Shown here: positions 1 to 37,676 of the stretch, one piece after another
Position numbering within the stretch: position 1 is the first letter of the stretch
How the letters are laid out: the number at the start of each line of letters is the position of its first letter
NCBI RefSeq assembly: GCF_026013615.1
Contig: NZ_JAPDPI010000047.1
Span: 1 to 42,073 of the forward strand
Length of the DNA stretch: 42,073 bases
Direction: 5' to 3'
Source: Plebeiibacterium marinum
GTDB taxonomy: Bacteria; Bacteroidota; Bacteroidia; Bacteroidales; Marinilabiliaceae
Notes under the pieces: model-generated
Told to the model about the DNA's origin: nothing
What the model saw: the letters and a program-made list of their open reading frames with translations, nothing else
The model's database searches: none
Program-made: the position numbers and the translations under genes

Positions 1-720
1 TAAGATCGGATCCGTAAGTAATAGCTGTTAGCCAATAGCTGATAGGACGGCTGCGCCTTTAGGACGCTACGCTTTAGCTTAAATGCATGCTACTAATACA
101 CCTTTTTACTCAGGAAAAACATTCCCGGATCCGTTCTTTATAAGCACCTTGTAATTAAGATCGGATCCGTAAGTAATAGCTGTTAGCCAATAGCCAATAG
201 GACGGCTGCGCCTTTAGGACGCAACGCTTTAGCTTGATTGCTTGCTACTAAAACATCTTTTTTACACAGGAACAACATTCCCGGATCCGATCTTTATAAG
301 CGCTTTGTAAATAAGATCGGATCCGTAAGTAATAGCTGTTAGCCAATAGGACGGCTACGCCTTTAGGACGCTGCGCTTTAGCTTGAATGTTTATACTACA
401 GCATTTTTTGCACAGGAACAACATTCTCGGATCCGATCTTTATAAGCTTCTTGTAAATAAGATCGGATCCGTAAGTAATAGCTGTTGGCCAATAGGACGG
501 CTGCGCCTTTAGGACGATACGCTTTTGCTTGATTGCTTGCTACTAATACACCTTTTTGCACAAGAATAGTATTTCCCCCTTGCCTCAGGGCAAAGAGGAA
601 GATTGGTTTTCGTAGGGGAAGCTACTATCTGCTCTCAACCCTCAGCTCTTTGCACTCTGCACTTCGCCATCTTAATACTTGGTTCTTTTTATAAGCACCT
701 TTAATTAAGATCGGATCTTT
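1..720 (-). repeat. Array of ~155-bp composite repeat with 42-bp GATC hairpins (left array)
   Basis: Units begin near 2, 156, 312 and 458, with a degenerate fifth near 706, so the period is about 146-156 bp. The array probably continues beyond the left edge. Each unit holds a TAATAGCTGTTAGCC-type word block, a pair of related modules (GGACGGCTGCGCCTTTA and GGACGCTACGCTTTAGC), a TACTAATACACCTTTTT block and a hairpin with arms GGATCCGATCTT and AAGATCGGATCC. Complete hairpins lie at 127-168, 283-324 and 429-470, each exactly 42 bp. The same unit occurs reverse-complemented at 11.3-12.3 kb and 13.1-13.65 kb. I call this orientation minus only to contrast it with the right arrays. A 30-bp second hairpin module lies at 572-601. 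No gene is seen in this stretch. Confidence 0.9.
572..601 (-). repeat. 30-bp hairpin module (copy 1, reverse orientation)
   Basis: Reverse complement of the module seen at 11257-11286, 11694-11723, 13007-13035 and 13354-13383. Its form is CTTCCTCTTTGCC, loop CTGA, then GGCAAGGGGGAAG. The arms pair over 13 positions if G-T pairs are allowed. It is flanked by a heptamer-word block (ctcaaccctcagctctttgc) and replaces the usual end of the composite unit here. Confidence 0.7.
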
Positions 721-721
721 T

Positions 722-796
722 TTACTAAAAACTATATGCTATTTGCTATTTGCCATAAGCCATAAGCTATTTGCTACAGGCTATAAGCTATTACCC
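722..796. repeat. Heptamer word array, GCTATTA type
   Basis: The stretch is made of degenerate 7-bp words such as GCTATTT, GCCATAA, GCTATTA and GCTACAG, ending at the stop of the DUF255 gene. It shows no terminator or other signal. Similar arrays occur at about 2960-3050, 4738-4785, 5335-5390, 6780-6810, 8525-8560 and 8915-8985. Confidence 0.75.
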
Positions 797-2809
797 CTAC
801 AACTCTTTCAGCTTTTGCAAAACTTCTTTATATGACGACATTGGTAAATGGCAACAATTGTTCTTGCACAGGTGAAAAACAACCTCATCACTATCTTTTC
901 CTTTTGCTATGGGTATTGTATGATCACCGGAAGCAATAAAAACAAAAGGATCAAAACGCTTTAAAATATCTTTATGCTCTTTGTCTTTGCTATTACCAGA
1001 GAGCACTAACTCAAAATTTTCGTATATAAAAAACAGTTTTAAACGCTGCCAGTTGGCATAATACTTTCCATGCTCATCTATTCGTCCACTCAAATTTTTC
1101 AGCATCTGGCATGAAGTATGGTAGGCCTCTTTATTAAGATAATATTTACTCAACCGATACAAATTAATGGCCATTACCGAATTTGAAGCCGGTATAACAT
1201 TATCTGATGTTTCACTCTTGCGCACAAGCAATGGGTCGTCCTTTACCGAGGTGTAATAAAACAACTGATTGTCATCATTAAAAAAATGTGCGCTTACGTA
1301 TTCACACAATGTATGCGCCAATTCTATCCATTTCTCTTCAAAACTTGCCATATACAGTTCAATCCAGGCGTCGATCAATAAAGCATAGTCATCTAAAAAT
1401 CCATTAATCACCCCCTTCTCTCCCTTTAAACTCCTCCAAAGGCCTCCATCATCCCGAAAGGCCGTATCCTTGATAAATTCTGAAGTTTTAATGGCATCCG
1501 ATAAATACTCCTCTTCCCCTGTAGCCTTGTAGGCCATCACCAAACCTTTAATCATGATGGCATTCCAGGAGGTCAATATTTTATTATCCAATAAAGGCCG
1601 CTTTCTACACTGTCTTCTCTCGAAAAGCAGATCCTTACATTTACTTATTTTCTCTTCCAACTCTTCACTTTCAAGGCCTGACCTGACAGCTATATCACCC
1701 ATAGCACTCGATTGAAACAAAATATTGTTACCACATTCCCAGTTTCCCTGCTCGGTAATATTAAAAACATCACAAAACAAATCGGCATCCCCGGCTAAAA
1801 CATCACGGATTTCTTGATAAGTCCATACATAAAACTTCCCTTCTCTGCCTTCGCTATCTGCATCCAAGGAGGCAAAAAAACCGCCTTCTTCCGATTGCAG
1901 CTCCCGTTTTACAAAGGCAATCGTTTCTTTTACCACCCTCTTATACAATGGATTCCCTGTAACCATATGGGCAATTGAATACACTTCTACCAACTGTCCC
2001 TGATCGTACAACATCTTCTCAAAATGGGGAACCTTCCAATATTCATCTACCGAATACCTTGCAAATCCACCTCCAAGGTGATCGTAAATACCTCCCTGAG
2101 CCATACGTGTCAGGCTCGTATCAACATAATCGAGAACTACAGGATTGTCCTGCTTTTGTAAATACGAGAATAAAAAATGATACTCAACAGGCATTGGGAA
2201 CTTGGGTGCCCCTTTGCTTCCACCCCAGACAAAATCAACGTTCTGCATCCAGCCCTCAATAGCCTTTTCCATAACCTCTTTGGTAAACAAGGCAGAATCC
2301 TTTACCAGTCCAACAAAATCCATCCGCTCTATCCCGGCTTTTATCTGCATCGACAAATCTTTTAGTCGCAAGGGGTCATTATCATGCAACTTCTTCACTT
2401 CTCTTAACAGGTTCATCCATTGTCTTTTCTGAAAATAAGTCCCTGCAAAAAACGGTTGACCATTGGGTAAAGCAATTATATTTAATGGCCACCCTCCCTT
2501 GCCGGTAGTCAAGTGCGCCACATCCATAAACACCTGATCGAGATCCGGTCTTTCTTCACGATCTATTTTTATTGACACAAAATGCCCATTCATTACCGAA
2601 GCCACTTCTTGATCGCTAAAGCTCTCTTTTTCCATAACATGACACCAGTGACATGCAGCATATCCAATGGATATAACCAATAGCTTATTTTCATTCCTGG
2701 CCTTTGTAAGAGCATCTTTTCCCCATGGAAACCAATGTACCGGGTTATGGGCATGCATCTGTAAATAAGGACTATTTTCTTTTGCCAATGCATTTTCAAT
2801 TTGCATCAT
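797..2809 (-). CDS. Thioredoxin domain-containing protein (DUF255, YyaL/SPATA20 family)
   Basis: A 670-residue protein of the COG1331 type. The N-terminal 165 or so residues form a thioredoxin-like DUF255 domain with the redox motif CHWC at residues 53-56, after the family signature [19 protein letters not shown]. The rest resembles an (alpha/alpha)6-barrel, with family motifs around [15 protein letters not shown] and [11 protein letters not shown]. Length is normal for the family. The biochemical role is not established; B. subtilis YyaL and human SPATA20 are relatives. Two ATG codons stand in tandem at 2809 and 2806, and either may be used. There is no signal peptide, so it is probably cytoplasmic. 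It stands alone, divergent from the DUF3820 gene. Confidence 0.93.
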
Positions 2810-2959
2810 CTATAAATACATTTAGTCTTTTATAATTCATAAGTAATGCTGACAAGAAAAGCACCTACACTACCTTATTTATGAATTTTTACTATGATTA
2901 TCTCTATTTCAAACACATTACCTCCAAATAAGGTTTAAAAGTTTTTTGAGAAATATTAT

Positions 2960-3050
2960 TATAGCTTATAGCTGATGGCTTATGGCTTATGGCTTATAGC
3001 TAGTGGCTATTAGCTATCGGCTATTAGCTATTAGCTAATTGCTATAATTT
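2960..3050. repeat. Heptamer word array, GCTATTA type
   Basis: A run of 7-bp words (GCTTATA, GCTGATG, GCTTATG, GCTATTA, GCTATCG) fills the spacer just upstream of the -7 box of the DUF3820 gene. The words run directly into the promoter region. Confidence 0.8.
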
Positions 3051-3052
3051 CA

Positions 3053-3060
3053 TATCTTTG
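3053..3060 (+). promoter_or_regulatory. Bacteroidota -7 box for the DUF3820 gene
   Basis: TATCTTTG matches the Bacteroidota -7 consensus TAnnTTTG. It lies 18 bp before the ATG at 3079. It overlaps an in-frame TTG at 3058, so that TTG cannot be the start of a transcript made from here. No TTTG -33 box is seen at the usual spacing. Confidence 0.65.
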
Positions 3061-3078
3061 CCCAAAAGACAAAGACAC

Positions 3079-3285
3079 ATGAACGAAAAATTACTGCTTG
3101 ATTTAGTAAAAACAAGAATGCCTTTTGGAAAATATAAAGGAACCATATTATGCGATTTACCAGAACCTTACCTGGTCTGGTTTCACCAAAAAGGCTTTCC
3201 GGAAGGTAAATTGGGTATGTTGTTGGCAACTTTATACGAGATTAAATTAAACGGACTGGAATACCTGCTTAAACCACTGAGGTAG
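3079..3285 (+). CDS. DUF3820 family protein
   Basis: A short basic protein of about 68 residues. MPFGKYKGTILCDLPEPYL followed by VWFHQKGFPEGKLGMLL is the typical DUF3820 sequence, a small single-domain family related to parts of exonuclease-associated proteins; its function is unknown. I start it at the ATG at 3079 rather than the upstream TTG at 3058 because the TTG lies inside the -7 box. It is a single gene between the divergent DUF255 gene and serB. Confidence 0.85.
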   Translation: MNEKLLLDLVKTRMPFGKYKGTILCDLPEPYLVWFHQKGFPEGKLGMLLATLYEIKLNGLEYLLKPLR

Positions 3286-3483
3286 ATCAAAGTTACTTCA
3301 CTGATATTTATACCTTTACGATTAAACAAATAAAATAATATGGTGGTTACAAAAGTAAACCAAACTATATCTGCTACCAACAAATAACCTTTCCCCAACA
3401 TCAATTCTCCCCCTCTGATGTTAAAAAAGATGAAATTTGTCATTATTTTACGACATGTGAATACCGCATTAGAGTTGATTTGC

Positions 3484-3491
3484 TATTTTTG
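3484..3491 (+). promoter_or_regulatory. Bacteroidota -7 box for serB
   Basis: TATTTTTG fits TAnnTTTG and lies 24 bp before the ATG at 3516. It overlaps the beginning of the longest open frame (TTG at 3480), which argues for the ATG as the start. No clear -33 box is seen. Confidence 0.6.
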
Positions 3492-3515
3492 TTTACCGAA
3501 AACACAAATTATACT

Positions 3516-4739
3516 ATGGCTAGTAATAGAGAGATCATTCTTGTAAATATCTCCGGTGATGATAAGCCCGGATTAACCTCTTCCTTAACCGAAATTTTAT
3601 CTCATTATAATGTACAGATCCTGGATATTGGCCAGGCTGTTATCCATGACGACTTAGGGTTGGGCATCTTATTTGAAGTACCACAAGCCTACGAGTCGGC
3701 CCCGATTTTAAAAGATCTGCTTTTCAAATCATACGAGATCGGCGTTAAAATTAAGTTTACCCCTATTTCGGAGTCAAGATACGCAGAGTGGGTTATGCAC
3801 CAGGGCAAAGAAAGGTTCATCATTACTTTATTGGCTAGAAAAATCACGGCTGAACACCTGGCAAAGGTTACCAGGGTGATCTCATCTCAGCAATTAAATA
3901 TTGATACCATCACACGCCTTTCGGGAAGGATCGACCTGAACAATGAACCAACCCAAAACAAGGCTGTGGTTGAACTTTCGGTACGTGGCAACCCCATTGA
4001 TGCTGAAATAATGAAAAGCGACTTTATGGAGCTTTCGAGCAAAATAGGTGTGGATATCGCATTCCAGGAAGACAACATTTTCAGGAGAAACCGCCGTTTG
4101 GTTTGTTTCGATATGGATTCTACATTGATACAAACCGAAGTTATCGACGAACTTGCTGAAAGAGCGGGAGTTGGAGCTAAGGTAAAAAAGATTACCGAAG
4201 CGGCTATGCGTGGCGAAATCGATTTTAACGAGAGCTTTATCCAGCGCGTGAGCCTTCTTAAAGGCCTTAACGAAAACGTGATGAAAGAAGTTGCAGAAAA
4301 CCTTCCTATCACTGAAGGTGCCGAGCGACTGATGAAAACACTGAATAAATACGGTTACAAAACTGCAATCCTTTCCGGTGGGTTCAATTATTTTGGAAAT
4401 CACCTGAAAGCAAAACTGGGTGTTGACTATGTTTTTTCGAACGAACTGGAAATTAAAAAAGGCAAACTGACCGGGAAACATGTTGGCGAGATTGTTGACG
4501 GCAAGAAAAAAGCTGAATTACTGAAGCTCCTTGCCTTTAAAGAAGATATACATTTGGATCAGGTTATTGCTGTTGGCGATGGTTCCAACGACCTGCCTAT
4601 GCTCCAACTGGCTGGTTTGGGTATTGCATTCCACGCCAAGCCAAAAGTAAAAGCTGGTGCCGACAATTCAATTTCCACCATTGGTCTCGATGCCATTTTA
4701 TATATGCTTGGCTTTAGAGACAGGGAGATTAGTATATAG
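3516..4739 (+). CDS. serB: Phosphoserine phosphatase SerB with N-terminal ACT-like region
   Basis: Hydrolyses L-3-phosphoserine to L-serine, the last step of serine synthesis. From the ATG at 3516 the protein has 407 residues. The first 190 or so look like two ACT-type regulatory domains (opening with ILVNISGDDKPGLTSSL). A haloacid-dehalogenase catalytic domain follows: nucleophile motif DMDST at about residues 199-203, the SGGFNYF motif in the middle, and GDGSNDLPML binding Mg2+ near the end. It is longer than single-domain SerB but usual for Bacteroidota. The ATG is preferred over TTG 3480 because a -7 box overlaps the latter. It is a single gene ending at a strong bidirectional terminator. 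Confidence 0.95.
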   Translation: MASNREIILVNISGDDKPGLTSSLTEILSHYNVQILDIGQAVIHDDLGLGILFEVPQAYESAPILKDLLFKSYEIGVKIKFTPISESRYAEWVMHQGKERFIITLLARKITAEHLAKVTRVISSQQLNIDTITRLSGRIDLNNEPTQNKAVVELSVRGNPIDAEIMKSDFMELSSKIGVDIAFQEDNIFRRNRRLVCFDMDSTLIQTEVIDELAERAGVGAKVKKITEAAMRGEIDFNESFIQRVSLLKGLNENVMKEVAENLPITEGAERLMKTLNKYGYKTAILSGGFNYFGNHLKAKLGVDYVFSNELEIKKGKLTGKHVGEIVDGKKKAELLKLLAFKEDIHLDQVIAVGDGSNDLPMLQLAGLGIAFHAKPKVKAGADNSISTIGLDAILYMLGFRDREISI

Positions 4740-4785
4740 CGGGTAGCCAATAGCAGGTAGCTAATAGCGGATAGCGGATAGCTAT
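4738..4785. repeat. Heptamer word array, AATAGCGG type
   Basis: Words such as GGTAGCC, AATAGCA, GGTAGCT, AATAGCG and GATAGCG begin right at the serB stop codon. They are the complement-like form of the GCTATTA words found upstream of genes. Confidence 0.7.
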
Positions 4786-4807
4786 TTTGCATTATTTAAA
4801 ACATAAA

Positions 4808-4850
4808 ACAAAAGGATATTTCCAATTAATATCCTTTTGTCATTTTTATA
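4808..4850. terminator. Bidirectional intrinsic terminator
   Basis: A perfect 12-bp stem, ACAAAAGGATAT (4808-4819) with ATATCCTTTTGT (4829-4840), encloses a 9-nt loop. T-rich runs follow on the plus strand (ATTTTTAT) and on the minus strand (TTTTATGTTTTA). It lies between convergent serB and the four-helix bundle gene and could end both. Confidence 0.85.
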
Positions 4851-4860
4851 GAATCACACC

Positions 4861-5223
4861 CTATCTTAATCTAACCAGAAGCCCATTTATCATTTTAACC
4901 ACTTCTTCTCCTAAACTTTCCAACTCATTTAATTTCTCTTTAGAAATCCATTTCTTCATATAAAATAAATTTACCAAGGTAAGTGTTTCATATAAAGAGC
5001 CTCTTGAATAAGCAAGAAACTTAGCAAAATCTTTATCCGTGGCCCGTCCTTTGCCTTCAGCAATATTTTGAGGAACAGATGCGGATGCCCCCTGGATCTG
5101 ATCAATTAGCTTGAAGTAGCACTTTTGTGTATCAAGTTGTTCTGTAATATCAATAGCCAAACTAGCAAATTGCATAGCTTTTTGCCACACAACCATTCTT
5201 TTAAAATTAAACTCATTGTCCAT
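4861..5223 (-). CDS. Four helix bundle protein (S23/IVP family)
   Basis: About 120 residues from the ATG at 5223, beginning MDNEFNFKRMVVWQKAMQF. It carries the family hallmark SVPQNIAEGKGR, followed by FLAYSRGSLYET. The family was first described from intervening sequences in 23S rRNA genes and is common as free-standing genes in Bacteroidota; its role is unknown. The open frame extends further upstream, but that part is mostly a terminator hairpin (5241-5278) with a run of T, so the ATG at 5223 is the likely start. Two broken relatives lie at 35770-36120 and 38482-38688. Confidence 0.9.
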   Translation of the reverse strand: MDNEFNFKRMVVWQKAMQFASLAIDITEQLDTQKCYFKLIDQIQGASASVPQNIAEGKGRATDKDFAKFLAYSRGSLYETLTLVNLFYMKKWISKEKLNELESLGEEVVKMINGLLVRLR

Positions 5224-5240
5224 GGTCAGAATATGATTAG

Positions 5241-5278
5241 ATAAAAAAAGCCTGCCCTTTTCAAAAAGCAGACTTAAA
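5241..5278 (-). terminator. Intrinsic terminator on the minus strand, after rlmL
   Basis: Read on the minus strand: AAGTCTGC, a loop TTTTTGAAAAGG, GCAGGCTT and then a T run. The 8-bp stem has one G-T pair. It lies about 115 bp after the rlmL stop and 18 bp before the start of the four-helix bundle gene, so it probably ends rlmL transcription and separates the two genes. It could also act as an attenuator for the second gene. Confidence 0.7.
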
Positions 5279-5334
5279 TCTATAATATTTTTCAATATTT
5301 CACAATATTCTCAAACTCTTGTGCTATTTGCCAT

Positions 5335-5392
5335 AAACTAAAAGCTATTAGCTATTAGCTATTAGCCCTAAGCTATACGCTATAAGCTACCC
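5335..5392. repeat. Heptamer word array, GCTATTA type
   Basis: Nearly perfect tandem GCTATTA words, then GCCCTAA, GCTATAC, GCTATAA and GCTACCC. The array ends at the rlmL stop codon. Confidence 0.8.
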
Positions 5393-5393
5393 C

Positions 5394-6545
5394 CTACCTA
5401 AACTTAATAATCTTCTTCATGGTGCCATCATAAATATTGAATTTATGGAAACCACATTCAAGGGCACCATTATATAACCTAAGTTTTTCCAACGGTTTTA
5501 AACCAACATTCTTCAAGGCTTCTTTGTTTGATGTAAGCACCCAGGCATCGTATCCTGTAAAAGTATGCTTTAACTGATTACCTATCATCCTGTAAAAATC
5601 AACCATATCCTTACCGTTCATTAAGCGCTCACCGTATGGAGGGTTCATTATAATCATCCCTTTAGGGTAATGTGGTTCTAATTTTTCAAAAGAAGAAACT
5701 GAAAAATTTATATCCCTGTTAAAGCGGAATCCCAAGGCAGATTCCCTTGCAATATCAATCGCTTTTATTGAGGCATCGCTACCAAAAATTTTAAGACGCG
5801 GATGTTCTATCTTGTCCCTGGCTTCTTCCACCACTTTATTCCACAAAGACTCATCGTAATCTTTCCACCCCATAAATCCAAAATGCTTTTTATGAAGTCC
5901 CGGCGGGTAATTTCGGGCGTACATTACAGCTTCCATCAAGATAGTACCCGAACCACACATTGGGTCAATCAAAGGCATCTTCCGATCCCATCCCGACAGC
6001 AAAACCATTCCGGCTGCCAGCACCTCATTCAATGGTGCCTTATGGTTTCCAACACGATACCCCCTCTTATGCAAAGAATCACCTGAACTATCCAATGATA
6101 TAGTAGCTTTATCCTTTGCCACATGAATAACCAGACGAACATTAGGATTTTCAACATCTACCGAAGGCCTTTTATCAAATTTATCCCTAAACTGGTCTAC
6201 AATAGCATCTTTTGCTTTTAATGCCACGAATTTGGAGTGGGTAAATATTTCCGAATACACCACCGGATCGATAGCCAGGGTATCATCCACCCCCATAATT
6301 TCAGCCCAGTCGTATTTTTTTACTCCATCATAAAGCTCCTGATCATTTTTTGCAGTAAAAGTATGTATGGGATGAAGCACTCTGATTGCTGTTCGTAGCA
6401 ATAGGTTTGATTTATACAAAATTTCCTTATCCCCTTCAAATTCAACAGCCCGGTTAACCTCGTTAATCTCCTGAGCTCCAATTCCCTTTAGCTCCTCAGC
6501 CAGAACACCTTCCAGCCCATGAAAAGTTTTTGCAATCAGCTTCAA
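5394..6545 (-). CDS. rlmL: RlmL-type 23S rRNA (guanine-N2)-methyltransferase with THUMP domain
   Basis: A class I SAM-dependent RNA methyltransferase of the COG0116 type, 383 residues. A THUMP RNA-binding domain occupies roughly residues 45-155. The methyltransferase domain shows the SAM-binding motif DPMCGSGT at 194-201 and the catalytic NPPYGERL starting at 301. By family it methylates N2 of a guanine in 23S rRNA (G2445 in E. coli). It corresponds to the N-terminal half of the fused E. coli RlmKL, without the RlmK half, as is usual in Bacteroidota. The start is TTG; no in-frame ATG lies nearby and MKLIAKTFHGLEGVLAEEL is the normal family N-terminus. A weak -7-like TAAATTCG lies at 6609-6602 on the minus strand. 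Confidence 0.9.
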   Translation of the reverse strand: MKLIAKTFHGLEGVLAEELKGIGAQEINEVNRAVEFEGDKEILYKSNLLLRTAIRVLHPIHTFTAKNDQELYDGVKKYDWAEIMGVDDTLAIDPVVYSEIFTHSKFVALKAKDAIVDQFRDKFDKRPSVDVENPNVRLVIHVAKDKATISLDSSGDSLHKRGYRVGNHKAPLNEVLAAGMVLLSGWDRKMPLIDPMCGSGTILMEAVMYARNYPPGLHKKHFGFMGWKDYDESLWNKVVEEARDKIEHPRLKIFGSDASIKAIDIARESALGFRFNRDINFSVSSFEKLEPHYPKGMIIMNPPYGERLMNGKDMVDFYRMIGNQLKHTFTGYDAWVLTSNKEALKNVGLKPLEKLRLYNGALECGFHKFNIYDGTMKKIIKFR

Positions 6546-6853
6546 TGTAGTATGTCTTAAATGAATAAATAAATGGCAAATCGTTACTGCCTTTTCCGCT
6601 GCGAATTTAGATTAATTTGATTGTTTTTGCAAGATAACTTTTGCACTATTTAAAAGGACTAAAAGAAACACAGAAGGACTCCACAGCGTACTTTAAACAT
6701 GAAGCTATCGGCTATTGACAATTCCATAAGGATCAGATCTTCTTCACATGGCGCTTATACAGATCGCCCCCTAACAACTACCCGCCATAAGCCATAAGCT
6801 ATAAGCTACGCCCCCCTTATGCTCAACAACATCTGTATTAACGAGTGTTAAAA
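6546..6853. other. Spacer between rlmL and the fumarase gene
   Basis: No gene is seen. It holds a degenerate isolated copy of the 42-bp GATC hairpin at 6730-6771 and a short GCTATAA-word stretch at about 6780-6810. The rest is AT-rich sequence with no further recognisable signal. Confidence 0.6.
6730..6771 (+). repeat. Isolated degenerate 42-bp GATC hairpin element
   Basis: GGATCAGATCTT, a loop with CACATGGCGCTTATA, then CAGATCGCC. This matches the array hairpins in length and loop sequence, but the arms have mutated. It lies outside the large arrays, so single copies of the element exist. Confidence 0.7.
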
Positions 6854-6885
6854 TCTGTTTTAGGATTTAATCTTTGTTATCTTTG
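6854..6885 (+). promoter_or_regulatory. Bacteroidota promoter of the fumarase gene
   Basis: A -7 box TATCTTTG (6878-6885) is preceded, at 20-bp spacing, by TCTG (6854-6857), a one-mismatch form of the -33 box TTTG. The ATG at 6920 lies 34 bp after the -7 box. The longer open frame starting at GTG 6845 would begin upstream of this promoter. Confidence 0.7.
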
Positions 6886-6919
6886 GGGACTTTTAAAAAA
6901 TATCAATAAATCATATATC

Positions 6920-8527
6920 ATGTCTGATTTCAAGTATCAAAAACCGTTTCCTATTTTAAAGGATACAACAGAATATCGACTGTTAACAAAGGATTATGTT
7001 TCAACAATAGAAGTTGATGGAAGAAAAATCCTTAAAGTAGATCCGGAAGGATTAAAGATGTTGGCCAAAGAGGCTTTTAATGATGTTTCGTTTTACTTGC
7101 GCCCTGCCCATCTTGAAAAACTTACCAATATTTTAAAAGATGACGAGGCTTCGGATAATGATAAATTTGTAGCCCATACCATGTTAATGAACCAGGTGGT
7201 TGCTGCAGAAGGAGAACTACCTACCTGTCAGGATACCGGTACTGCCATTGTTGTAGCAAAAAAAGGCGAAGATGTATACACCGGAGCTTGTGATGCAGAT
7301 TATTTATCGCAAGGGGTTTACGAAACCTATAATGAGCGTAACTTACGCTATTCACAGGTGGTGGCCAAATCCATGTTTGACGAGAAGAATACCGGAAACA
7401 ACCTTCCTGCTCAAATTGACATTTATGCTGATCAGGGTAATAAATATGAGTTTTTATTCCTTACCAAAGGAGGTGGTTCAGGAAACAAAACTTTCTTGTA
7501 CCAACAAACAAAAAGTTTATTGACAGAAGAGAACCTCACTAAATTTGTTGAGGAAAAGATAAAGGACCTGGGAACTTCTGCTTGTCCCCCATACCACCTG
7601 GCATTGGTAATAGGAGGAACTTCTGCTGAAGCAACCCTGGCAACAGTTAAAAAGGCATCTGCTGGTTATTTGGACCATTTGCCTACCGAAGGAAATGATG
7701 GCGGACAAGCATTCCGCGACCTGGAGTGGGAAGAAAAAGTATTGAAGATCTGTCAGGAAAGCCAGATTGGTGCTCAGTTTGGCGGTAAATATTTCGTACA
7801 TGATGTACGTGTAATCCGCTTGCCGCGTCATGCCGCATCTTGTCCTGTAGGTTTAGGAGTTAGCTGTAGTGCCGACAGAAATATCAAAGCAAAAATCACT
7901 GAAGAGGGAATTTTTGTAGAGCAACTGGAGAAAAATCCATCAAGATTAGTACCTGAAAGAGCACCAGAACTTGAGCCTGCTGTGGATATTGATCTGGACC
8001 AGCCAATGGAAGAAGTACTAAAGGTACTGACCAAGCACCCAATCAAAACACGCCTGAACCTATCAGGAACTTTAGTTGTTGCCCGCGATATGGCACATGC
8101 CCGTATCAAGCAAATGTTGGATGAAGGACAAGAAATGCCTGAATATTTAAAGAACCACCCTGTTTATTATGCAGGTCCTGCAAAAACACCGGAGGGAATG
8201 CCTTCAGGTAGCTTTGGTCCTACAACAGCCGGAAGAATGGATCCTTATGTTGATCTTTTCCAAAGCAAAGGCGGCTCAATGATTATGGTAGCCAAAGGAA
8301 ACCGTTCTCAACAAGTTACCCATGCATGTAAGGTACATGGAGGTTTCTACCTGGGATCGATAGGTGGTCCTGCGGCTATCCTTGCCAAAACAAATATTAA
8401 ATCGGTTGAGGTAGTTGATTTCCCTGAGTTGGGCATGGAGGCTGTTCGTAAAATCCGCGTAGAAAACTTCCCAGCATTTATTATTGTTGACGACAAGGGT
8501 AGTGATTTCTTTAGCGAAATGAAGTAG
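6920..8527 (+). CDS. fumA: Class I fumarate hydratase (fumarase, [4Fe-4S])
   Basis: Interconverts fumarate and malate in the citric acid cycle. The protein has 535 residues from the ATG at 6920 and combines the N-terminal alpha domain and C-terminal beta domain in one chain, like E. coli FumA/FumB. Visible motifs are [40 protein letters not shown] and, in the C-terminal domain, [15 protein letters not shown]. The conserved cysteines are those expected for the oxygen-sensitive iron-sulfur cluster. The enzyme type suits anaerobic or microaerobic life, but that is an inference. It has its own promoter and a terminator at 8757-8790. Confidence 0.96.
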
Positions 8528-8756
8528 TTGGTAGCTCTTGGCTTATAGCAGATAGCTTATACTGGGTGCTTGAGAGCACTTTTCACCAAGAGTTATTTAA
8601 CAATAGATCGTTAGATTTTAGATAATAGACATTAGACTGATTTACAATTCGCTTAAAATAAATAAGATAATAATTTTGTCATAAATTATTCAATATATTT
8701 AGAATCAGCACATTATAAAGATTTAACGAACTAATGATTTAACAAACAATATATAT
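8528..8756. other. Spacer after the fumarase gene
   Basis: It begins with a short heptamer-word stretch (GGTAGCT, GGCTTATA, GATAGCT). A stretch of short TTAGATTTTAGATAATAGAC-like words lies at about 8605-8640. No gene is seen. The rest is AT-rich. Confidence 0.5.
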
Positions 8757-8790
8757 AATGCCGTTCCCGAATATAGGAACGGCATTTTTT
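8757..8790 (+). terminator. Intrinsic terminator of the fumarase gene
   Basis: A perfect 11-bp stem, AATGCCGTTCC (8757-8767) with GGAACGGCATT (8776-8786), an 8-nt loop and a run of T. It lies about 230 bp after the fumarase stop codon and is the only clear terminator in this spacer. Confidence 0.85.
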
Positions 8791-8914
8791 ATGATATCAT
8801 ATATGGATAAAAAATAACGATAGACAATCCTATTTCAGAATAAATAGTGTTTGCAAACTCGATTCTATCCCAACACACACCAGCAAGCCTTTGAACAATA
8901 TGTCATTCATTCGC

Positions 8915-8985
8915 TATAAACCATTAGCCATTAGCTATAAGCCATCAGCTATAGGCTATTCGCTATAAGCTATTAGCCATTAACC
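8915..8985. repeat. Heptamer word array, GCTATTA type
   Basis: Words such as GCCATTA, GCTATAA, GCCATCA, GCTATAG and GCTATTC run up to the stop codon of the NifX-like gene. Nothing else is seen between 8791 and 8989. Confidence 0.75.
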
Positions 8986-8989
8986 ACAA

Positions 8990-9379
8990 CTAACACCCCG
9001 AACAGGAAGAACAACCATCTGAAGAACATGAACTTTTACTCTCAATCATAGCTTCAGTAAAATCTTTCAGCAATCCCCTTTTTAAAAGGGAAATATTTTC
9101 CTCCACCAATGATGCGGAAGCTTTGTATACTTCAATTTCGTTTTCAAAAAGTATTTTGGCAGCCATGGGACGAAGGTTTGGGGTAATAATGGCTTCTATT
9201 TCAAGTTTCTTAATCTCATCCATCGTCAGATATATAGCACTTGTATCGCTTAACGAATAAATAGACGACTGATCGGTATCAATATCAATGATATTATAGT
9301 GTTGTGCTTTGTAAAAATCAGGTGCTAATAACTCTTTCTTTAAAGCACTCTCTCCTAAAATTGGCATACATACTTTCAT
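8990..9379 (-). CDS. NifB/NifX family (dinitrogenase iron-molybdenum cofactor-type) protein with cysteine tail
   Basis: About 129 residues from the ATG at 9379 (MKVCMPILGESALKKE). It fits the small NifX/NifB-like fold (PF02579-type), whose members carry metalloclusters or bind iron-sulfur or FeMo-type cofactor precursors. The end is unusual: CSSDGCSSCSGC gives a C-x4-C-x2-C-x2-C pattern that could bind a metal or cluster. No nitrogenase or cofactor gene is nearby. Many anaerobic Bacteroidota carry such orphans of unknown role. The open frame extends to 9433, but the MKVCMPI start matches the family. It is a single gene with no clear promoter. Confidence 0.8.
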   Translation of the reverse strand: MKVCMPILGESALKKELLAPDFYKAQHYNIIDIDTDQSSIYSLSDTSAIYLTMDEIKKLEIEAIITPNLRPMAAKILFENEIEVYKASASLVEENISLLKRGLLKDFTEAMIESKSSCSSDGCSSCSGC

Positions 9380-9857
9380 AATCTTTTGTGTTTTAAGGTT
9401 GAACTCTACATTCTGGTAACTCCCAAATTGCATTTTCTACATAATTGTAGGATTAATTGGTTTTGTACTCATTGTTATTTTACTGATTAACAGTAAGTAT
9501 TATTCTTATTTTGTGTTATTCTGGTTATTATACTGCAAGCAACAGGCCAAGTTTTACAATGATCAATGACCAATTAGCAATGATCAATGACCAACAACCA
9601 ACAACCAATGACTAATCACTAATGACCAATGGCCAATGACTAATGGCCAATGACTAATGGCCAGTAACAATGATCAATTAACAAATAAGCATCAACCAGC
9701 GCAGTAAGCAGTTAAAAAATCAGCCAAACAAAAACAAAAAAAAATACTTCTCCAATAGGGGTAAAAAACCACAGTAATGTCTTTAATATAGAAGAACAAA
9801 CAGGCAATGGCCAGCTGTAAAACAAAAACAACTTAGTAAAACCTAAAATTTAATATC
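9380..9857. other. Spacer with CCAATGA-type heptamer word array
   Basis: Positions 9556-9680 are mostly degenerate 7-bp words (CAATGAC, CAATTAG, CAATGAT, CAACAAC, TAATGGC). The rest is AT-rich with A runs before the next gene. No gene, terminator or clear promoter is seen. Confidence 0.7.
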
Positions 9858-11174
9858 ATGAGAACAGAAAAATATTATAAGCGCAGGATTTTGAATATCC
9901 TTATTGCCATAGTTTTTATGGTAGGAATTGTACCCGTATCTATTTTAGCCAATCCGGTTGTTGATGATGATATACTGCCCGATACATTAAACACCATTCA
10001 ATACCGGGGAAAAATAATCGATAGTGAATCAGGAGCCCCATTGGTGTTTGCAACACTAACCATCGAAGGGACGAATATTGCCACTGTATCCAATTCGGAA
10101 GGTGATTTTTTATTGAAAGTACCAAAAGAAATGCCTCTGAATACAAAAATCAGTGTTTCCTACCTTGGATATAAAGGAAAATCGTTTGTATTGTCGGATT
10201 TAAAACCTGACAAAAACAAACTAAAACTTGACCTGTTAACAATATCTTTGTCGGAAATTAATGTAGCACCCAAAGATGCACACCAAATTATCAGGGAAGT
10301 AATCTCCAGGAAAAAAGAGAATTACATCCAGGAACCTTTGCGAATGACTACCTTTTACCGGGAAACAATTAAGCGAAGGCGGAACTATGTATCTTTGGCC
10401 GAAGCCGTGATTGATGTTCACAAACAACCCTACTCCAACTATCGTTTGGATGGGATGAAATTATTCAAGGCACGTAAAGATGCTGATTACAGTAAAATGG
10501 ATACCCTGACTTTTAAATTGCAGGGAGGCCCCTATTCTACCTTGATGTTAGATATTATGAAAGAGCCTTATTCCATCATTACGGTAGAAGAAATTGATTA
10601 CTACATCTTTAAATTAGAAAACATCACCAAGGTCAATAACCGCTTGATATATGTTATCAGCTTTGAACAGAAGCCTTATGTAGAAGAACCCTTGTTTTAC
10701 GGCAGGTTATATATCGATGTGGAATCCATGGCCATTTCAAGTGCAAATTACAGCATCAATATTGAAGATAAGAATAAAGCTTCGGCTATGTTTATTAAGC
10801 GCAAGCCTGTTGGCGCCGTGGTTTATCCTACCGAAGCCAGTTACCTTGTAAATTACCGTCAGCACCAAGGCAAGTGGATGTATGGCTATTCGCGGGGACA
10901 GATTACTTTTAAAATTAACTGGAAGAAAAAACTGTTCAACACAAGCTATACTTCTACTATTGAAATGGCGGTTACCGATTGGCGCAAAGCCACCGAACGT
11001 CCGTTTAAAGTGAGCGAACGCCTGAACCAAAACATTATTTTACAGGATAAGGTAGCCGGATTCAGCGATCCACAATTCTGGGGCGACTATAACGTTATAG
11101 AACCGGAAGCTTCTATTGAGTCGGTAATTAAGAAGATAAAGAAAAGATTGGATAAGGTGGCCGAGAGTGAGTAG
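9858..11174 (+). CDS. Exported carboxypeptidase-regulatory-like domain protein
   Basis: 438 residues. A hydrophobic segment at about residues 10-31 (ILNILIAIVFMVGIVPVSIL) acts as a signal peptide or anchor. A CarboxypepD_reg-like beta-sandwich spans roughly 47-130, with the typical GKIIDSESGAPLVFATLTI and GTNIATVSNSEGDFLL. The remaining region, with TTFYRETIKRRRNYVSLAEA, is common in Bacteroidota envelope proteins related to the DUF5686 group. It is probably exported to the periplasm or outer membrane, but its function is unknown. It lacks the TonB-receptor barrel that often follows this domain. It stands alone, and its stop codon is followed at once by heptamer-word DNA. Confidence 0.85.
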   Translation: MRTEKYYKRRILNILIAIVFMVGIVPVSILANPVVDDDILPDTLNTIQYRGKIIDSESGAPLVFATLTIEGTNIATVSNSEGDFLLKVPKEMPLNTKISVSYLGYKGKSFVLSDLKPDKNKLKLDLLTISLSEINVAPKDAHQIIREVISRKKENYIQEPLRMTTFYRETIKRRRNYVSLAEAVIDVHKQPYSNYRLDGMKLFKARKDADYSKMDTLTFKLQGGPYSTLMLDIMKEPYSIITVEEIDYYIFKLENITKVNNRLIYVISFEQKPYVEEPLFYGRLYIDVESMAISSANYSINIEDKNKASAMFIKRKPVGAVVYPTEASYLVNYRQHQGKWMYGYSRGQITFKINWKKKLFNTSYTSTIEMAVTDWRKATERPFKVSERLNQNIILQDKVAGFSDPQFWGDYNVIEPEASIESVIKKIKKRLDKVAESE

Positions 11175-11175
11175 T

Positions 11176-11256
11176 TTATGGCGGAGGGCAAAGAGCGGAG
11201 GGCTGAGAGCAAAGAGCAGAGGGCAAAGAACAGTTCCTTCTCCTATGAAAAACAAT
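11176..11256. repeat. Heptamer word array, GGCAAAG type
   Basis: The words read GGCGGAG, GGCAAAG, AGCGGAG, GGCTGAG, AGCAAAG, AGCAGAG, GGCAAAG in strict 7-bp register directly after the stop codon. The same word type recurs at about 12951-12985 and 13292-13330. Confidence 0.8.
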
Positions 11257-11286
11257 CTTCCTCTTTGCCCTGAGGCAAGGGGGAAG
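11257..11286 (+). repeat. 30-bp hairpin module (copy 2)
   Basis: CTTCCTCTTTGCC, loop CTGA, GGCAAGGGGGAAG. Near-identical copies lie at 11694-11723 and 13354-13383, a variant at 13007-13035, and a reverse copy at 572-601. It is always preceded by a CCTATGAAAAACAAT or AAAACCAAT block. Confidence 0.75.
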
Positions 11287-12270
11287 TACTGTTCCTGTGC
11301 AAAAAAGGTATATTAGTAGCATGTAATCAGGCTAAAGCGCAGCGTGCTAAAGGCGCAGCCGTCCTATTGGCTAACAGCTATTACTTACGGATCCGATCTT
11401 ATTTACATGGCGCATATAAAGAACGGATCCCGGAATATTGTTCCTGTGCAAAAAGGTGTATTAGTAGCTAACAATCAGGCTAAAGCGTAGCGTCCTAAAG
11501 GCGTAGCCGTCCTATCAGCTATTGGCTAACAGCTATTACTTACGGATCTGATCTCATTTACAATACGCTTATAAAGATCGGATCCGGGAATATTGCTCCT
11601 GAGCAAAAGATGCTGTAGTAGCGAGCAATTAAGCTAAAGCGCAGCGTCCTAAAGGCGCAGCCGTCCTATCAGCTAATAGCTATTAAAACCAATCTTCCTC
11701 TTTGCCCTGAGGCAAGGGGGAAGTACCATGCAGCAAGCATGGGGATGGGGGTCATTTAGAGAATAACTCTTTAGACGTACGCCCATAAGCTAAAACACAT
11801 TATAGAGGCAGGACTTCTCTTACGGATCCGATCTTAATTACATGGCGCTTATAAAGATTGGATCCGGGAATATTGTTCCTGTGCAAAAAGGTGTATTAGT
11901 AGCAAACATTCAAGCTAAAGCGCAGCGTCCTAAAGGCGGAGCCGTCCTATTGGCTAACAGCTATTACTTAAGGATCCGATCTTAATTACAAGGTGCTTAT
12001 AAAGAACGGATCCGGGAGATGTTGTTCCCATGCAAAAGGTGTATTAGTAGCAAGAAATCAAGCTAAAGCGCAGCGTCCTAAAGGCGAAGCCGTCCTATCA
12101 ACTATTGGCTAACAGCTATTACTTACGGATGCGATCTTATTTACATGGCGCTTATAAAGATCGGATCCGGGAGATGTTGTTCCCATGCAAAAAGTGTATT
12201 AGTAGCAAACAATCAAGCTAAAGCGCAGCGTCCTAAAGGCGGAGCCGTCCTATCTGCTAATAGCTATTGA
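11287..12270 (+). repeat. Array of ~155-bp composite repeat with 42-bp GATC hairpins (right array A)
   Basis: Reverse complement of the left array. Five hairpins of exactly 42 bp lie at 11389-11430, 11544-11585, 11824-11865, 11972-12013 and 12127-12168. Between them are GGTGTATTAGTAGC, a variable 10 bp or so, AAGCTAAAGCGCAGCGTCC, AAAGGCGCAGCCGTCC and GGCTAACAGCTATTACTTA blocks. The second and third hairpins are separated by an extra block (11690-11823) carrying the 30-bp hairpin module and a GTACCATGCAGC to GCAGGACTTC segment. No gene is seen. The array ends at the stop codon of the antiterminator gene. Confidence 0.9.
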
Positions 12271-12276
12271 CTATTG

Positions 12277-12804
12277 TCAATTGCTTCCCCCCTCCTCTTT
12301 CATCACGGTTGCCTCTTCCAGGTTTACTACCAGTGTATAACCAATATTTGAAATGTTCAGGTACAGTTTTTTGGTTCCCTGAATGGTTTCTACCGTACCT
12401 TTTATCCCTTTCAACGGACCGGAAGTAACGGTAATCTCCTCTCCCTTTTTAATATTTCGTGCCTCAACATCAAAAGCAATCTTGTTTTCAATGGTTCTGC
12501 GCATGGCTTCAATTTCATATTCAGGAATATTAACAGCCTTGCCCTTGTACGACACATAAGCCACTATTCCATTTACCTGAAAAACATCATTATACCTTTC
12601 CTTAGGAATTTTAATGAAAATATAGGAACTGATCGCAGGTACCTCAACCCACTTTTTACGGTCGCTCCACTGGCGCAATTCCCTTTTTATGGGCAGGTAG
12701 TTTATAATCCCAAGCTTATTAAGCTCTTCTGCCACTTTCTTCTCTGCCCTCGACTTGGTATACAGGGCATACCAATAGTTTGCTGTTGTTGTGCTTTCTT
12801 TCAA
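12277..12804 (-). CDS. NusG-like (UpxY-type) transcription antiterminator
   Basis: 175 residues with an N-terminal NGN domain at about residues 9-105 (YWYALYTKSRAEKKVAEEL, then VPAISSYIFIKIP). A KOW-type segment follows at about 115-150 (KKGEEITVTSGPLKGIKGTV). It belongs to the specialised NusG paralogues that, in Bacteroides, let RNA polymerase read through the leader of a capsule operon. Unlike typical upxY it is not the first gene of the operon: it faces the other way, 1.2 kb from the regulator pseudogene and about 2.8 kb from the first glycan gene. The start is TTG (12804), 24 bp after a -7 box. Repeat arrays in the same orientation flank it. Confidence 0.88.
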   Translation of the reverse strand: MKESTTTANYWYALYTKSRAEKKVAEELNKLGIINYLPIKRELRQWSDRKKWVEVPAISSYIFIKIPKERYNDVFQVNGIVAYVSYKGKAVNIPEYEIEAMRRTIENKIAFDVEARNIKKGEEITVTSGPLKGIKGTVETIQGTKKLYLNISNIGYTLVVNLEEATVMKEEGGSN

Positions 12805-12828
12805 AATCCTCTAATTTTCTCAATTATG

Positions 12829-12836
12829 CAAATGTA
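12829..12836 (-). promoter_or_regulatory. Bacteroidota -7 box of the antiterminator gene
   Basis: TACATTTG on the minus strand fits TAnnTTTG and lies 24 bp before the TTG start at 12804. A TTG is present upstream, but at 23-bp spacing, longer than usual. Confidence 0.6.
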
Positions 12837-12889
12837 ATTTTTTTGAAATAAAAACTATTCAATCACCAACAAATTATTGCGAAGAAATC

Positions 12890-13136
12890 CGACGTGACAT
12901 ATAACCATGGAGCAGTTTCTTGAAAAGAATCGAGTAGCAAGATGGCGGAGCGCGGAGTGCAAAGAGCTGAGGGCGGAGAACAGTGCCTTCTCCTATGAAA
13001 AACAATCTTCCTCTTTGCCCTGAGGCAACGGAAAGTACCATGCTGCAGTGTATGGGGATGGGGGTCATTTAGCGAACAACTCTTTGGACGTACGCCCATA
13101 AGCTAAAACACATTATAGAGGCAGGACTTCACTTAC
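12890..13136. repeat. Spacer of word DNA and 30-bp hairpin module (copy 3)
   Basis: It contains GGCAAAG-type heptamers (12951-12985), the block TGCCTTCTCCTATGAAAAAC and a variant of the 30-bp hairpin module at 13007-13035. A segment from GTACCATGCTGCAG to GAGGCAGGACTTCAC repeats the one at 11724-11820. Open frames on the minus strand here are translations of repeats, not genes. Confidence 0.75.
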
Positions 13137-13650
13137 GGATCCGATCTTATTTACAAGATGCTTATAAAGATCGGATCCGGGAATATTGCTCCTGTGCAAA
13201 AAGGTGTATTAGTAGCTAACATTTAAGCTAAAGCGCAGCGTCCAAAAGGCGGAGCCGTCCTATCTGCTATTGGCAAATCAGTATCAATATTGCGAAGTGC
13301 GAAGTGCAAAGAGCTGAGGGCAGAGAACAGTGCCTCCTCCTACGAAAACCAATCTTCCTCTTTGCCCTGAGGCAAGGGGGAAGTACCATGCAGCAGGCAT
13401 GGGGATGGGGGTCTTTTAGAGAACAACTATTGGGACGTACGCACATAAGCTAAAACACATTATAGAGGTAGGACTAATACGCAGCAAGCCTGTTATATGT
13501 TATTTAAGGATCCGATCTTATTTACAATACGCTTACAAAGATCGGATCCGGGGAAATGTTGTTCCTATGCAAAAGATGCTATAGTAGCAATTAGTTAAGC
13601 TAAAGCGCAGCGTCCTAAAGGCGCAGCCGTCCTATCAGCTATCAGCTATT
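13130..13650 (+). repeat. Composite repeats with 42-bp GATC hairpins (right array B)
   Basis: Two more units with hairpins at 13137-13178 and 13508-13549, both exactly 42 bp with perfect 12-bp arms. Between them lie the usual TATTAGTAGC and AAGCGCAGCGTCC modules, a GGCAAAG-type word stretch (13292-13330), a fourth 30-bp hairpin module (13354-13383) and its GTACCATGCAGC to GAGGTAGGAC partner segment. The orientation equals that of right array A, so the antiterminator gene is flanked by direct repeats. Confidence 0.9.
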
Positions 13651-13726
13651 AGCTAACCCCTACCCCACCAAGCTCTACCTCTAACATTCTACTCACTTTT
13701 TCGAAAAAAGAAACTTCTAAAATTAC

Positions 13727-13984: not shown

Positions 13985-15375
13985 ATGAACTCCGATCAAC
14001 TTAAATACATAATAGCTCAAGGTGAAAATGAAGCGGTTGAGTTCAAATCTTCTTTTAACAAAGCCGCAATTGAAACTATAGTTGCATTTTCAAACACAAA
14101 AGGAGGCTTGGTTATCATTGGGGTTTCTGATAATATGGAAGTAACAGGGGTTAATACTAACAACGAATCTATTCAAAACTGGCTAAATGAGATAAAACAA
14201 AAAACCGAACCTTCAATCATCCCAAATAAAATAGAAGTTGGAGTTGATTCAAAAGAACTGGTAGTCTTATCTATTCCTGAAGTCCCGGTAAAGCCTGTAG
14301 CCTTGCAAGGTCGTTATTATTTAAGAAAAGGAAATTCGAACCACTTGTTAAATGCAGATGAAATTGTTGAATTACGAATGGAAAGTATGAATCTCTCTTT
14401 CGATGCATATCCGGTAAAAACAAAATTTAAAGCGCTCAACAATGCTGCATTAAAACTGTTTTCCACCAAAACCAAAGAAAAGGGGCGTTACATACCTTCA
14501 CCAATATTAGAAAACGACTTTCATAAATTGGGATTAATTCAGAATGATACACTAACACGAGCTTGCGAACTTCTATTTGGCTTGCATCACACGTCAATAC
14601 ATATAGGCAGATTTAAATCATCGTCCACAATTATTGACGACATACTCATTAAAAGCCCATTAATCCAAGCTGTTGAAGAAGCTATGGATTTTATAAAAAA
14701 GAATATAAGGTTAGGTTATGAATTTACAGGAGACCTTAGCCGCAAGGATAAGTGGCAATTCCCTTTACAGGCAATTAGAGAACTATTGCTTAATGCTATA
14801 ATCCATAAAGATTACCGAAATCCAACAGATGTGATCATAAAGATATATGACAATGAAATTCAGTTTTCAAACCCGGGTAATTTATTTGGTAACTTAACTA
14901 TCGATGAATTAAATACGGATAGCTATCAACCTAGACATAGAAACAGGTTATTAGCTGAAGTGTTTTATTTAATGGGAGAAGTAGAAAAGTACGGTACCGG
15001 TTTTAAAGAATACGCGATTGGCTTAAAGAATACCCAAATCTTACTTATAGGATCGAAAACATGAATGATTTCACACGGATTATACTTAGACAAAAGCATG
15101 AAACATTTGCTTCAGATCAAGTAAATGTCCCCGTAAATGTCCCCGTAAATGTCCCTGTAAATGTCCCTGTAAATGAAAGACAACAAAAAATATTAGAGAT
15201 AATACCAACCACCCCTTATATAACAAGTCAGGAGTTGGCAAACCTATTAAACGTAAGTCTGAAAACAATAAAAAGAGACTTAACCAAACTTAAGAATATC
15301 AAACTAATACAAAGAGTTGGTTCGGATAAAACAGGATACTGGAAAGTAATTAGTAACCTATATGCTAAGAGATAA
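13985..15375 (+). pseudogene. AlbA_2-type DNA-binding/ATPase-like regulator, frameshifted
   Basis: One gene in two open frames, 13985-15064 and (from ATG 15061) to 15375. The first has a Schlafen AlbA_2 domain (GENEAVEFKSSF, ETIVAFSNTKGGLVIIGV) and a GHKL-like ATPase region (LLNAIIHKDYRNP, GTGF). The second has a C-terminal helix-turn-helix (SQELANLLNVSLKTIKRDL). A -1 shift at about 15007 joins them: it reads GTGFK then RIRDWLKEYPNLTYRIENMN, which is what this COG2865-type family has there. The site TTTTAAAG is not a proper slippery heptamer, so loss of one A in the A run is most likely. A 12-bp tandem repeat (about 15122-15173) encodes VNVP units, common in this family. A base-call error is possible. 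Confidence 0.8.
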
Positions 15376-15558
15376 GAGCAGAGAGATGAGTTGTTTTACA
15401 AACCAGTAACCAATGACCAGTGACCAATTAGCAATTATCAATAACCAATGACCAAAAACCAATAACCAATAACCAATGACCAGTAACCAATTAGCAGTTA
15501 TCAATAACCAATGACTATTGACTATTGACCAGCAACCAGTAACAAGTAACAAGCAACA
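15376..15558. repeat. Heptamer word array, CCAATGA type
   Basis: Words such as CAATGAC, CAGTGAC, CAATTAG, CAATAAC and TATTGAC fill the space up to the ATG of the dehydrogenase. The first part, with the end of the preceding open frame (15352-15420), recurs in near-identical form at 16964-17021. Confidence 0.85.
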
Positions 15559-35497: not shown

Positions 35498-35765
35498 GAT
35501 AAAAAAGGGTGCAAGGGGAATAAAGGAGTAGGGGTACAAAAAAATGGGTGCAAGGGTATAAAGGAGTAGGGGTACAAAGGTACAGAGGGACAAGTAGATT
35601 AAAGGGACAGAGGGACAAGGGTGCAGAGGGACAGAGGTAAAGAGGTGCAAGGGAGCAGAGGTCACCATTAAACCATTGAACCACTGAACCTTTACACCTT
35701 CATACCTTTACACCTATGAACCATTGAACCATTACACCCTTAACCCATTACACCTAAAAAAAACA
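35498..35765. repeat. Octamer word arrays in opposite orientations
   Basis: Positions 35505-35662 are purine-rich (AGGGACAG, AGGTACAA, AGGTAAAG, AGGTGCAA words). Positions 35665-35760 are pyrimidine-rich (ACCATTAA, ACCATTGA, ACCTTTAC). The switch from one strand type to the other lies in the middle of the spacer. Frames on the minus strand here are translations of repeats. Confidence 0.85.
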
Positions 35766-35769
35766 CATC

Positions 35770-36230: not shown

Positions 36231-36247
36231 AGACCTTTTTTAATTTT

Positions 36248-37655: not shown

Positions 37656-37676
37656 AGATGAATAAAATGATAATAT

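Follow-up and report, generated by a model that had tools for sequence, protein, structure and literature searches.

Tag-less 42-nt hairpins of Plebeiibacterium marinum, probable REP-like palindromes of Bacteroidota RAYTs

Results

The window, the whole 42,073-nt stretch of Plebeiibacterium marinum DNA analysed here, contains 11 copies of a 42-nt hairpin. A sequence-only reading had reported ten complete copies and one degenerate copy, and all were recovered where it placed them; it had missed a right end at 1–13 and a degenerate copy near 685–720. Strands were assigned from the orientation of the ATTTRCA...GCTTATA top. The features are as follows.

1..566, minus: tandem array of a ~146–155-bp composite unit that includes the hairpin; period 146, 3.7 copies
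1..13, minus: end of a further copy, the rest cut off by the contig start; right arm at 2–13
127..168, minus: 42-nt hairpin copy; one non-Watson-Crick stem pair
283..324, minus: hairpin copy, stem perfect; 12 Watson-Crick pairs
429..470, minus: hairpin copy, stem perfect; 12 Watson-Crick pairs
685..720, minus: short degenerate copy; 688–720 is 94% identical to part of the composite unit
6730..6771, plus: degenerate copy standing alone between two genes, with 5 of its 12 stem pairs disrupted
11281..12273, plus: second composite array, in two stretches with an interruption at ~11690–11818
11389..11430, plus: hairpin copy in the second array
11544..11585, plus: hairpin copy in the second array; four GATC sites
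11824..11865, plus: hairpin copy in the second array
11972..12013, plus: hairpin copy in the second array
12127..12168, plus: hairpin copy in the second array
13137..13178, plus: hairpin copy, stem perfect, with one composite unit (13132–13269)
13508..13549, plus: hairpin copy, stem perfect, with one composite unit (13500–13655)

Within the window the 42-mer is one segment of a tandem unit of 146–155 bp (~150 bp), in which further short repeats make up the remaining ~105 bp. It also occurs without this unit elsewhere in the genome; in all, 13 copies are free of the unit, with varied flanks. Twelve Watson-Crick stem pairs are present in only 4 of the 11 window copies (283, 429, 13137, and 13508), and four GATC sites in 5 (283, 429, 11544, 13137, and 13508). 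Among P. marinum copies less than 400 bp apart in the analysed DNA, 41 of 48 spacings are 145–163 bp, and each hairpin group keeps one orientation and a regular spacing. Twelve of 34 groups lie at contig ends. The copies are dispersed and intergenic, and none of the 34 groups falls within a closed ORF of 100 aa or longer.

A genome search with fixed arms and an N18 loop, as the sequence-only reading had proposed, returned 14 places in P. marinum and none for the reversed pattern. Allowing up to 3 mismatches to the consensus gives 69 copies, against 0 in the control. A search with free spacing, allowing up to 4 mismatches over both arms together, found 84 arm pairs. The loop is 18 nt in 79 of these and 14, 17, 19, 19, and 21 nt in the other five, so that the constant length claimed earlier holds for all 11 window copies and nearly throughout the genome. 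Constant arms were not confirmed: besides the imperfect stems in the window, stem pair 8–35 is A.A in 29 of the 84 copies, without compensation. Freely varying length with uncompensated arm changes had been named as the mark of decaying repeat DNA; on this test the outcome is mixed, with a nearly fixed length and this one pair broken and uncompensated. The supposedly variable loop centre is not free, since columns 20–23 of the 84 copies are mainly A/G/T, G/A, G/A, and T/C. The hairpin is preceded on its 5′ side by NTA[C/A/T] in 83 of 84 copies, and neither GTAG nor GTGG is among the tetranucleotides listed there.

Two further features were considered and rejected. A paired upper stem is weak (67.5% of cells pair in 28 43-mers versus 62.5% when shuffled, a value reached by 13 of 2,000 shuffles), and most P. 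marinum forms fold with an open loop. A host-wide role for TTGCAAGATGCTT is not supported, because it occurs only 0–3 times in each of 60 relatives and its 28 occurrences in P. marinum are mostly in another repeat.

Another genus of the same family (g12) has this architecture, a stem of ~12 bp with an 18–19-nt top and a total of 41–43 nt, on other stems (GGAACGGTTCT, GGAGCGGCTCT, and GGATGCGATCT). One g12 hairpin, GGATGCGATCTTTATTGACAAGAAGCTCATAAGATCGCATCC, is nearly identical to the window element; the hairpin at G084:C4 differs from that of the window mainly by paired changes. A stem-only search of 149 genomes, with lengths of 39–44 nt allowed, found the stem in 12; all 68 listed places, of 69 found (one of G094 is missing), are 41–43 nt long. 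Tops at 43 of the 68 score at least 10/14 for the window motif (shuffled mean 1.16, maximum 7). Across these hairpins the pairing and the length are retained, as are in most cases a TAN at the 5′ side and a tip of the RCA-NNN-TGC type; the GATC letters are not kept. The 5′ TAN is not strict in foreign hairpins, being present in only 23 of 31 by hand count. Exact loop matches outside the P. marinum genome number 8 in the genus; three have full stems (L131, L136, and L138), one has a 5-bp stem (L129), and four have no stem. Both genes at the matching site are side by side in only three of eight genus relatives, and there both hairpins are absent, in an alignment too poor to place the exact joint. 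A scan of named genomes returned one contig, JAFMVD010000001.1 of Marinilabiliaceae bacterium N1Y90 (G094:C52), with a hairpin at 190087; an exact-pattern scan of viral contigs returned no match.

Between genomes, pairing is kept in 92.8% of cells and double changes occur at 7 of 12 pairs, in a comparison whose foreign rows came from a scan requiring pairing. P. marinum rows were chosen without regard to pairing, and their 72 distinct copies contain 8 double-changed cells versus a shuffled mean of 2.0; double changes affect 2 pairs, no more than in shuffles (880 of 2,000 reach this). The stem is maintained by compensatory change, with weaker support from the P. marinum rows alone. A selected structure rather than drift, as suggested earlier, is supported by the pairing and the 41–43-nt length kept between genomes, and not by any constancy of the arms.

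Hairpins of this architecture flank genes for REP-associated tyrosine transposases (RAYTs) in relatives (G019:C174, G098:C100, G084:C7, G094:C114, and G084:C4), and likewise a broken RAYT gene in G046. The flanked proteins match NCBIfam REP_Tyr_transpos at 1.8e-15, below its cut-off, and Y1_Tnp at 23.3 bits (cut-off 23); their best PDB match is 4er8, TnpA-REP (E 0.003). They carry the transposase motifs NHFH with YIHQNP, YIHNNP, or YTHYNP. Every one of the 5 genomes that carry this close RAYT group belongs to the 12 stem-bearing genomes (P 1.4e-6, assuming independent genomes, which they are not), and 7 of the 12 lack a close copy of the group.

No close relative of this likely cognate group was found in the P. 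marinum assembly, which has gaps at the arrays; its best RAYTs match the group at 36% (C88) and 40% over 62 residues (C163). C88 has its own triloop hairpins, and a RAYT at C22:97272 has other hairpins. At C163, hairpins with a different stem flank the gene and also sit inside its ORF, leaving the frame unbroken; the top of one flanking hairpin, ATTTGCAAGATGCTTATA, differs by a single letter from the most frequent P. marinum loop. G094:C50, near the RAYT group (52%), has triloop hairpins instead. The tip of the window hairpins is shared by three or more RAYT lineages, the relatives of which have 3-nt loops, with loop types labelled by hand and 9 of 79 RAYT rows left out (one duplicate, the rest fragments or incomplete, including the broken G046 gene). 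In the loop survey at 75 RAYT loci outside P. marinum, 8 of 151 hairpins have loops of 5–7 and belong to neither class.

Discussion

The 42-mers are probably (about three chances in four) REP-like palindromes of Bacteroidota RAYTs, spread singly and then multiplied in a composite tandem unit. That a RAYT binds and moves the hairpins is inferred here, as are the features it recognises and the way in which the arrays expanded. As single-stranded DNA, the 42-mers would be present or former targets of a Y1 tyrosine transposase of the RAYT/TnpA-REP type, which would recognise the pairing of the stem, its fixed overall length with the top, a TAN immediately 5′ of the stem, and the RCA-NNN-TGC-like tip. 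The stem could drift when both arms change, and genomes would therefore end up with their own stem versions. Single copies would have spread into intergenic sites, and one composite would then have been amplified into head-to-tail arrays, with unequal recombination or slippage as the most likely mechanism. P. marinum may have lost the cognate enzyme or substituted another RAYT for it, or the gene may lie in an assembly gap.

Plain tandem-repeat DNA, a unit growing and shrinking by recombination or slippage around a hairpin with no reader of its own, would account for the regular spacing and single orientation of each group, and the 12 of 34 groups at contig ends are as expected of homogenised repeats. 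It is an unlikely explanation of the whole family given the 13 unit-free copies with varied flanks, the pair-keeping stem changes, and the other stems of the same architecture beside RAYT genes in another genus; recombination or slippage probably accounts for array growth even if a RAYT reads the hairpins. Slightly less credible is an element acting in RNA, as a 3′-end, stability, or attenuation structure of transcripts, with only an ancestral link to RAYTs. The commonest form has a predicted RNA fold of −17.2 kcal/mol, and 6 of the 34 intergenic groups lie between convergent genes, but others lie between tandem (11) and divergent (5) genes. The 3′ flank, which reads GGGAA... in arrays and differs from one single copy to another, has no T-run of the intrinsic-terminator type, the window has no Rfam match at the gathering threshold, and 11 of 13 isolated copies carry an A.A mismatch (pair 4).

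Methylation at GATC, raised by the sequence-only reading, would make the four sites the functional part. Four are present in 26 of 84 P. marinum copies, three in 50, and two in 8. This explanation was set aside as very improbable because relatives share the architecture on GATC-free stems such as GGAACGGTTCT.

Returning to the RAYT palindromes, hairpins from three or more distinct RAYT lineages within one bacterial family share one tip, ATTTRCA-NNN-TGCTTATA or near forms, although their stems are unrelated. We tentatively consider a modular arrangement, with the stem as a private address and the tip as a common handle, to be possible, with the odds against it. The recurrence of this tip on stems that differ suggests a shared second reader (a host protein or a RAYT acting in trans) or exchange of tops between REP families.

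Canonical REPs are short palindromes of about 20–40 bp with a 5′ GT[AG]G directly before the hairpin. The earlier view that the element matches no known repeat family is partly right: it resembles the REP palindromes of RAYTs, and it differs from canonical REPs in having no such tag and in an 18-nt top that brings the total to 42 nt, slightly over the usual range. The REP/RAYT pairs that have been studied in depth carry a GTAG tag. Like the REP/BIME elements of E. coli with RAYT/TnpA-REP, the hairpins are short, intergenic, and present in many copies, with stem mismatches and pair-keeping stem variants, and the copies of relatives flank Y1 transposase genes. BIMEs, as described in PMC2817692, alternate in orientation, whereas the arrays here run head to tail in one orientation. 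IS200/IS605 ends share the Y1 transposase family and, as proposed here, hairpins read as single strands; they differ in that no enclosed two-ended mobile unit was seen here, the hairpins being single and in arrays.

Related structures are described in Quentin et al. 2018 (PMC6006769). Its subclass 2.6, atypical structures beside Bacteroidetes TnpA-Y1 genes, shares Bacteroidota hosts, the absence of GT[AG]G, additional genomic copies, and YIH[QN]NP in some proteins; the sections consulted give no sequence for that family and mention neither exchange of stems nor a fixed length or common tip, and the NHFH of the proteins here is tabulated there for subclass 2.4. Subclass 2.4, with a REP inserted inside the transposase gene, resembles the hairpins in the C163 ORF and shares NHFH, but its canonical 5′ GT[AG]G is absent here. 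The GTAG- and CGTC-tagged palindromes of PMC3733652 likewise change complementary stem letters, and CGTC repeats occur in Bacteroidetes; the table of that paper gives them 8–9-bp stems and 4–5-nt loops and does not link them to transposase genes. Palindromes like those described here exceed the defaults of RepRanger (a length of 32 nt and a loop of no more than 11; PMC12306157) and lack the tag required by the automatic search of Quentin et al., so other families of this sort may escape notice. This Bacteroidota family, tag-less and with its stem exchanged but its pairing, length, and tip kept, offers natural series of hairpins and transposases on which to test what these enzymes recognise.

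Hairpin copies and their surroundings

All 11 copies of the GATC-rich 42-bp hairpin that the sequence-only reading had claimed in the window were found where it placed them. Its claim of constant arms did not hold, with a fully paired stem in 4 of the 11 copies and not in the other 7. The 42-mer lies in a tandem unit of 146–155 bp in the window. Within the unit, the hairpin is followed by ~105 bp that carry further short repeats (AAAGCGCAGCGTCC, AAAGGCGCAGCCGTCC, and heptads such as TAGCTAT); NTA[C/A/T] then leads into the next hairpin.

The window is one entire contig of an assembly of 5.62 Mb and 187 contigs. Across this genome, 69 copies have ≤3 mismatches to the consensus (control, 0), and an ungapped search of the window and 25 further stretches of this genome with ≤9 mismatches gave 84 copies (L numbers denote analyzed stretches). 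These form 34 groups of uniform internal orientation, 12 of them at contig ends. None of the 34 is contained in a closed ORF of ≥100 aa, and such ORFs make up 79% of that DNA. On a looser list (90 aa, open ends counted), copies overlap a 97-aa ORF (L066:1621), an ORF running off a contig end (L077:99), and the start of an ORF (L068:10773). Thirteen copies lack the unit; stem pair 4 is an A.A mismatch in 11 of them.

Two 43-nt copies on contig C44 (L086:4539 and L086:4767) have the usual arms and a divergent loop centre, ATTTCCGTTTTTGATTATA. Arrays on C165 (L080:8540-9070 and 15240-15475) have the unit's non-hairpin part, with the 42-mer replaced by another palindrome-like segment. On C22, an interval of ~280–310 bp between two genes holds two hairpins. 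The matching intervals in genomes G008, G007, and G001 are 136, 103, and 37 bp and hold none, and align too poorly to place the exact joint.

Other features of the window are:
4861-5295, minus strand, 23S rRNA intervening-sequence protein gene
11680-11815, 12993-13128, and 13340-13475, second repeat family, 136 nt, 83–93% identity, interleaved with hairpin arrays
12277-12804, minus strand, NusG-domain protein
35501-38939, several intergenic arrays, periods 8, 16, 24, and 40 bp

The NusG-domain gene sits between two hairpin arrays, and genes for a sugar-nucleotide dehydrogenase and an ABC transporter lie downstream of it. A separate dispersed repeat of ~140 bp (L081:8975-9120; C22:28975-29120) has at least 30 further places in this genome, at 86–95% identity among the matches listed. 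It contains TTGCAAGATGCTT, which resembles the hairpin tip, and a ~46-bp part recurs in other genomes of the genus at ~80–87%.

Length and stem pairing

A free-spacing search found an 18-nt loop in 79 of 84 arm pairs. Copies from this genome, selected solely by consensus similarity, include 8 double-changed cells that still pair, all at pair 6-37 or 12-31; shuffles average 2.0, and 0 of 2,000 reach 8. The number of pairs with a double change is two, which shuffling also produces, and 29 of the 84 copies have a broken pair 8-35. Between genomes (28 distinct rows), 92.8% of cells pair versus 79.0% shuffled, and slid alignments reach at most 56.7%. Double changes occur at 7 of 12 pairs (3 of 500 shuffles reach 7) and in 43 cells versus 13.7 shuffled. 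The rows from other genomes were collected with a scan that requires pairing, so this is support, not proof, for a kept stem.

A stem-only search of 149 genomes with a free 17–22-nt top matched 12, all from this genus or a second one. Among the 68 places listed, lengths are 41 nt (2), 42 nt (38), and 43 nt (28). Scored against the loop motif of the window, 43 of the 68 tops reach ≥10 of 14 (shuffled mean 1.16, maximum 7), a contrast widened by shuffling A/T-rich edges with the centre.

Association with RAYT genes

The hairpins are probably REP-like palindromes of REP-associated tyrosine transposases (RAYTs). The genome has seven Y1_Tnp matches, five above cut-off. The C163 RAYT falls below it (21.5 bits) and has hairpins on its flanks and in frame within its ORF, with stems unlike the window's:
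L097:1069-1701 (C163), RAYT ORF, 210 aa, hairpin sequence read in frame

One flanking top, ATTTGCAAGATGCTTATA, is one letter off the commonest loop in this genome. Proteins related to that of C163 are present in 33 of the 61 genomes compared. Another RAYT, G019:C174, has matches in 58 of 149 genomes. Hairpins with the architecture seen in the window flank its closest relatives, found in G098, G084 (two genes), G094, and G046 (a broken gene). Among these hairpins are GGAACGGTTCT and GGAGCGGCTCT, and the one beside G084:C4 is GGATGCGATCTTTATTGACAAGAAGCTCATAAGATCGCATCC. However, three observations count against the link: G094:C50 (52% identity) has triloops, no close copy of the G019:C174 group was found in the P. 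marinum genome, and of the 12 genomes that bear the stem, 7 lack one.

A RAYT in G027:C231 (L192:1386-2220) also has hairpins within its ORF. By eye, an upstream ORF resembles one for a Cas6-type protein.

Hairpins with arms of ≥11 pairs lie near 63 of 75 RAYT loci of other genomes. The 151 hairpins have loops of 3–4 nt in 85 cases and ≥8 nt in 58, and 13 of the latter reach ≥10 for the motif, compared with 0.55 on average and at most 3 after shuffling. In a 70-RAYT tree, five changes are needed to account for the nine that bear the shared tip (RCA-NNN-TGC-like), and starred branches force at least three of them; the label still clusters, as 2 of 500 shuffles need so few changes. All nine belong to the bacterial family of P. 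marinum, also the family with the densest sampling. In other genomes, similar stems carry triloops (ACTCATCCGATGACT, L163 versus L247; CCTGACAGG, L190 and L227 versus L250).

Comparison with known systems

A literature search of partial coverage, based on passages, found no paper on the window's hairpin family, and the sections covered of PMC6006769 do not describe it. In those sections, subclass 2.6 comprises transposases of Bacteroidetes whose flanking structures are atypical and lack GT[AG]G, the canonical REP tag, and subclass 2.4 has REP insertions within the transposase gene. The RAYTs analyzed here share features with both. According to passages of PMC8266576, TnpA-REPs read a tetranucleotide and irregularities of the stem, and some groups also read the loop. 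By analogy, the tag, A.A mismatch, and tip of the window's hairpins are plausible counterparts of these features.
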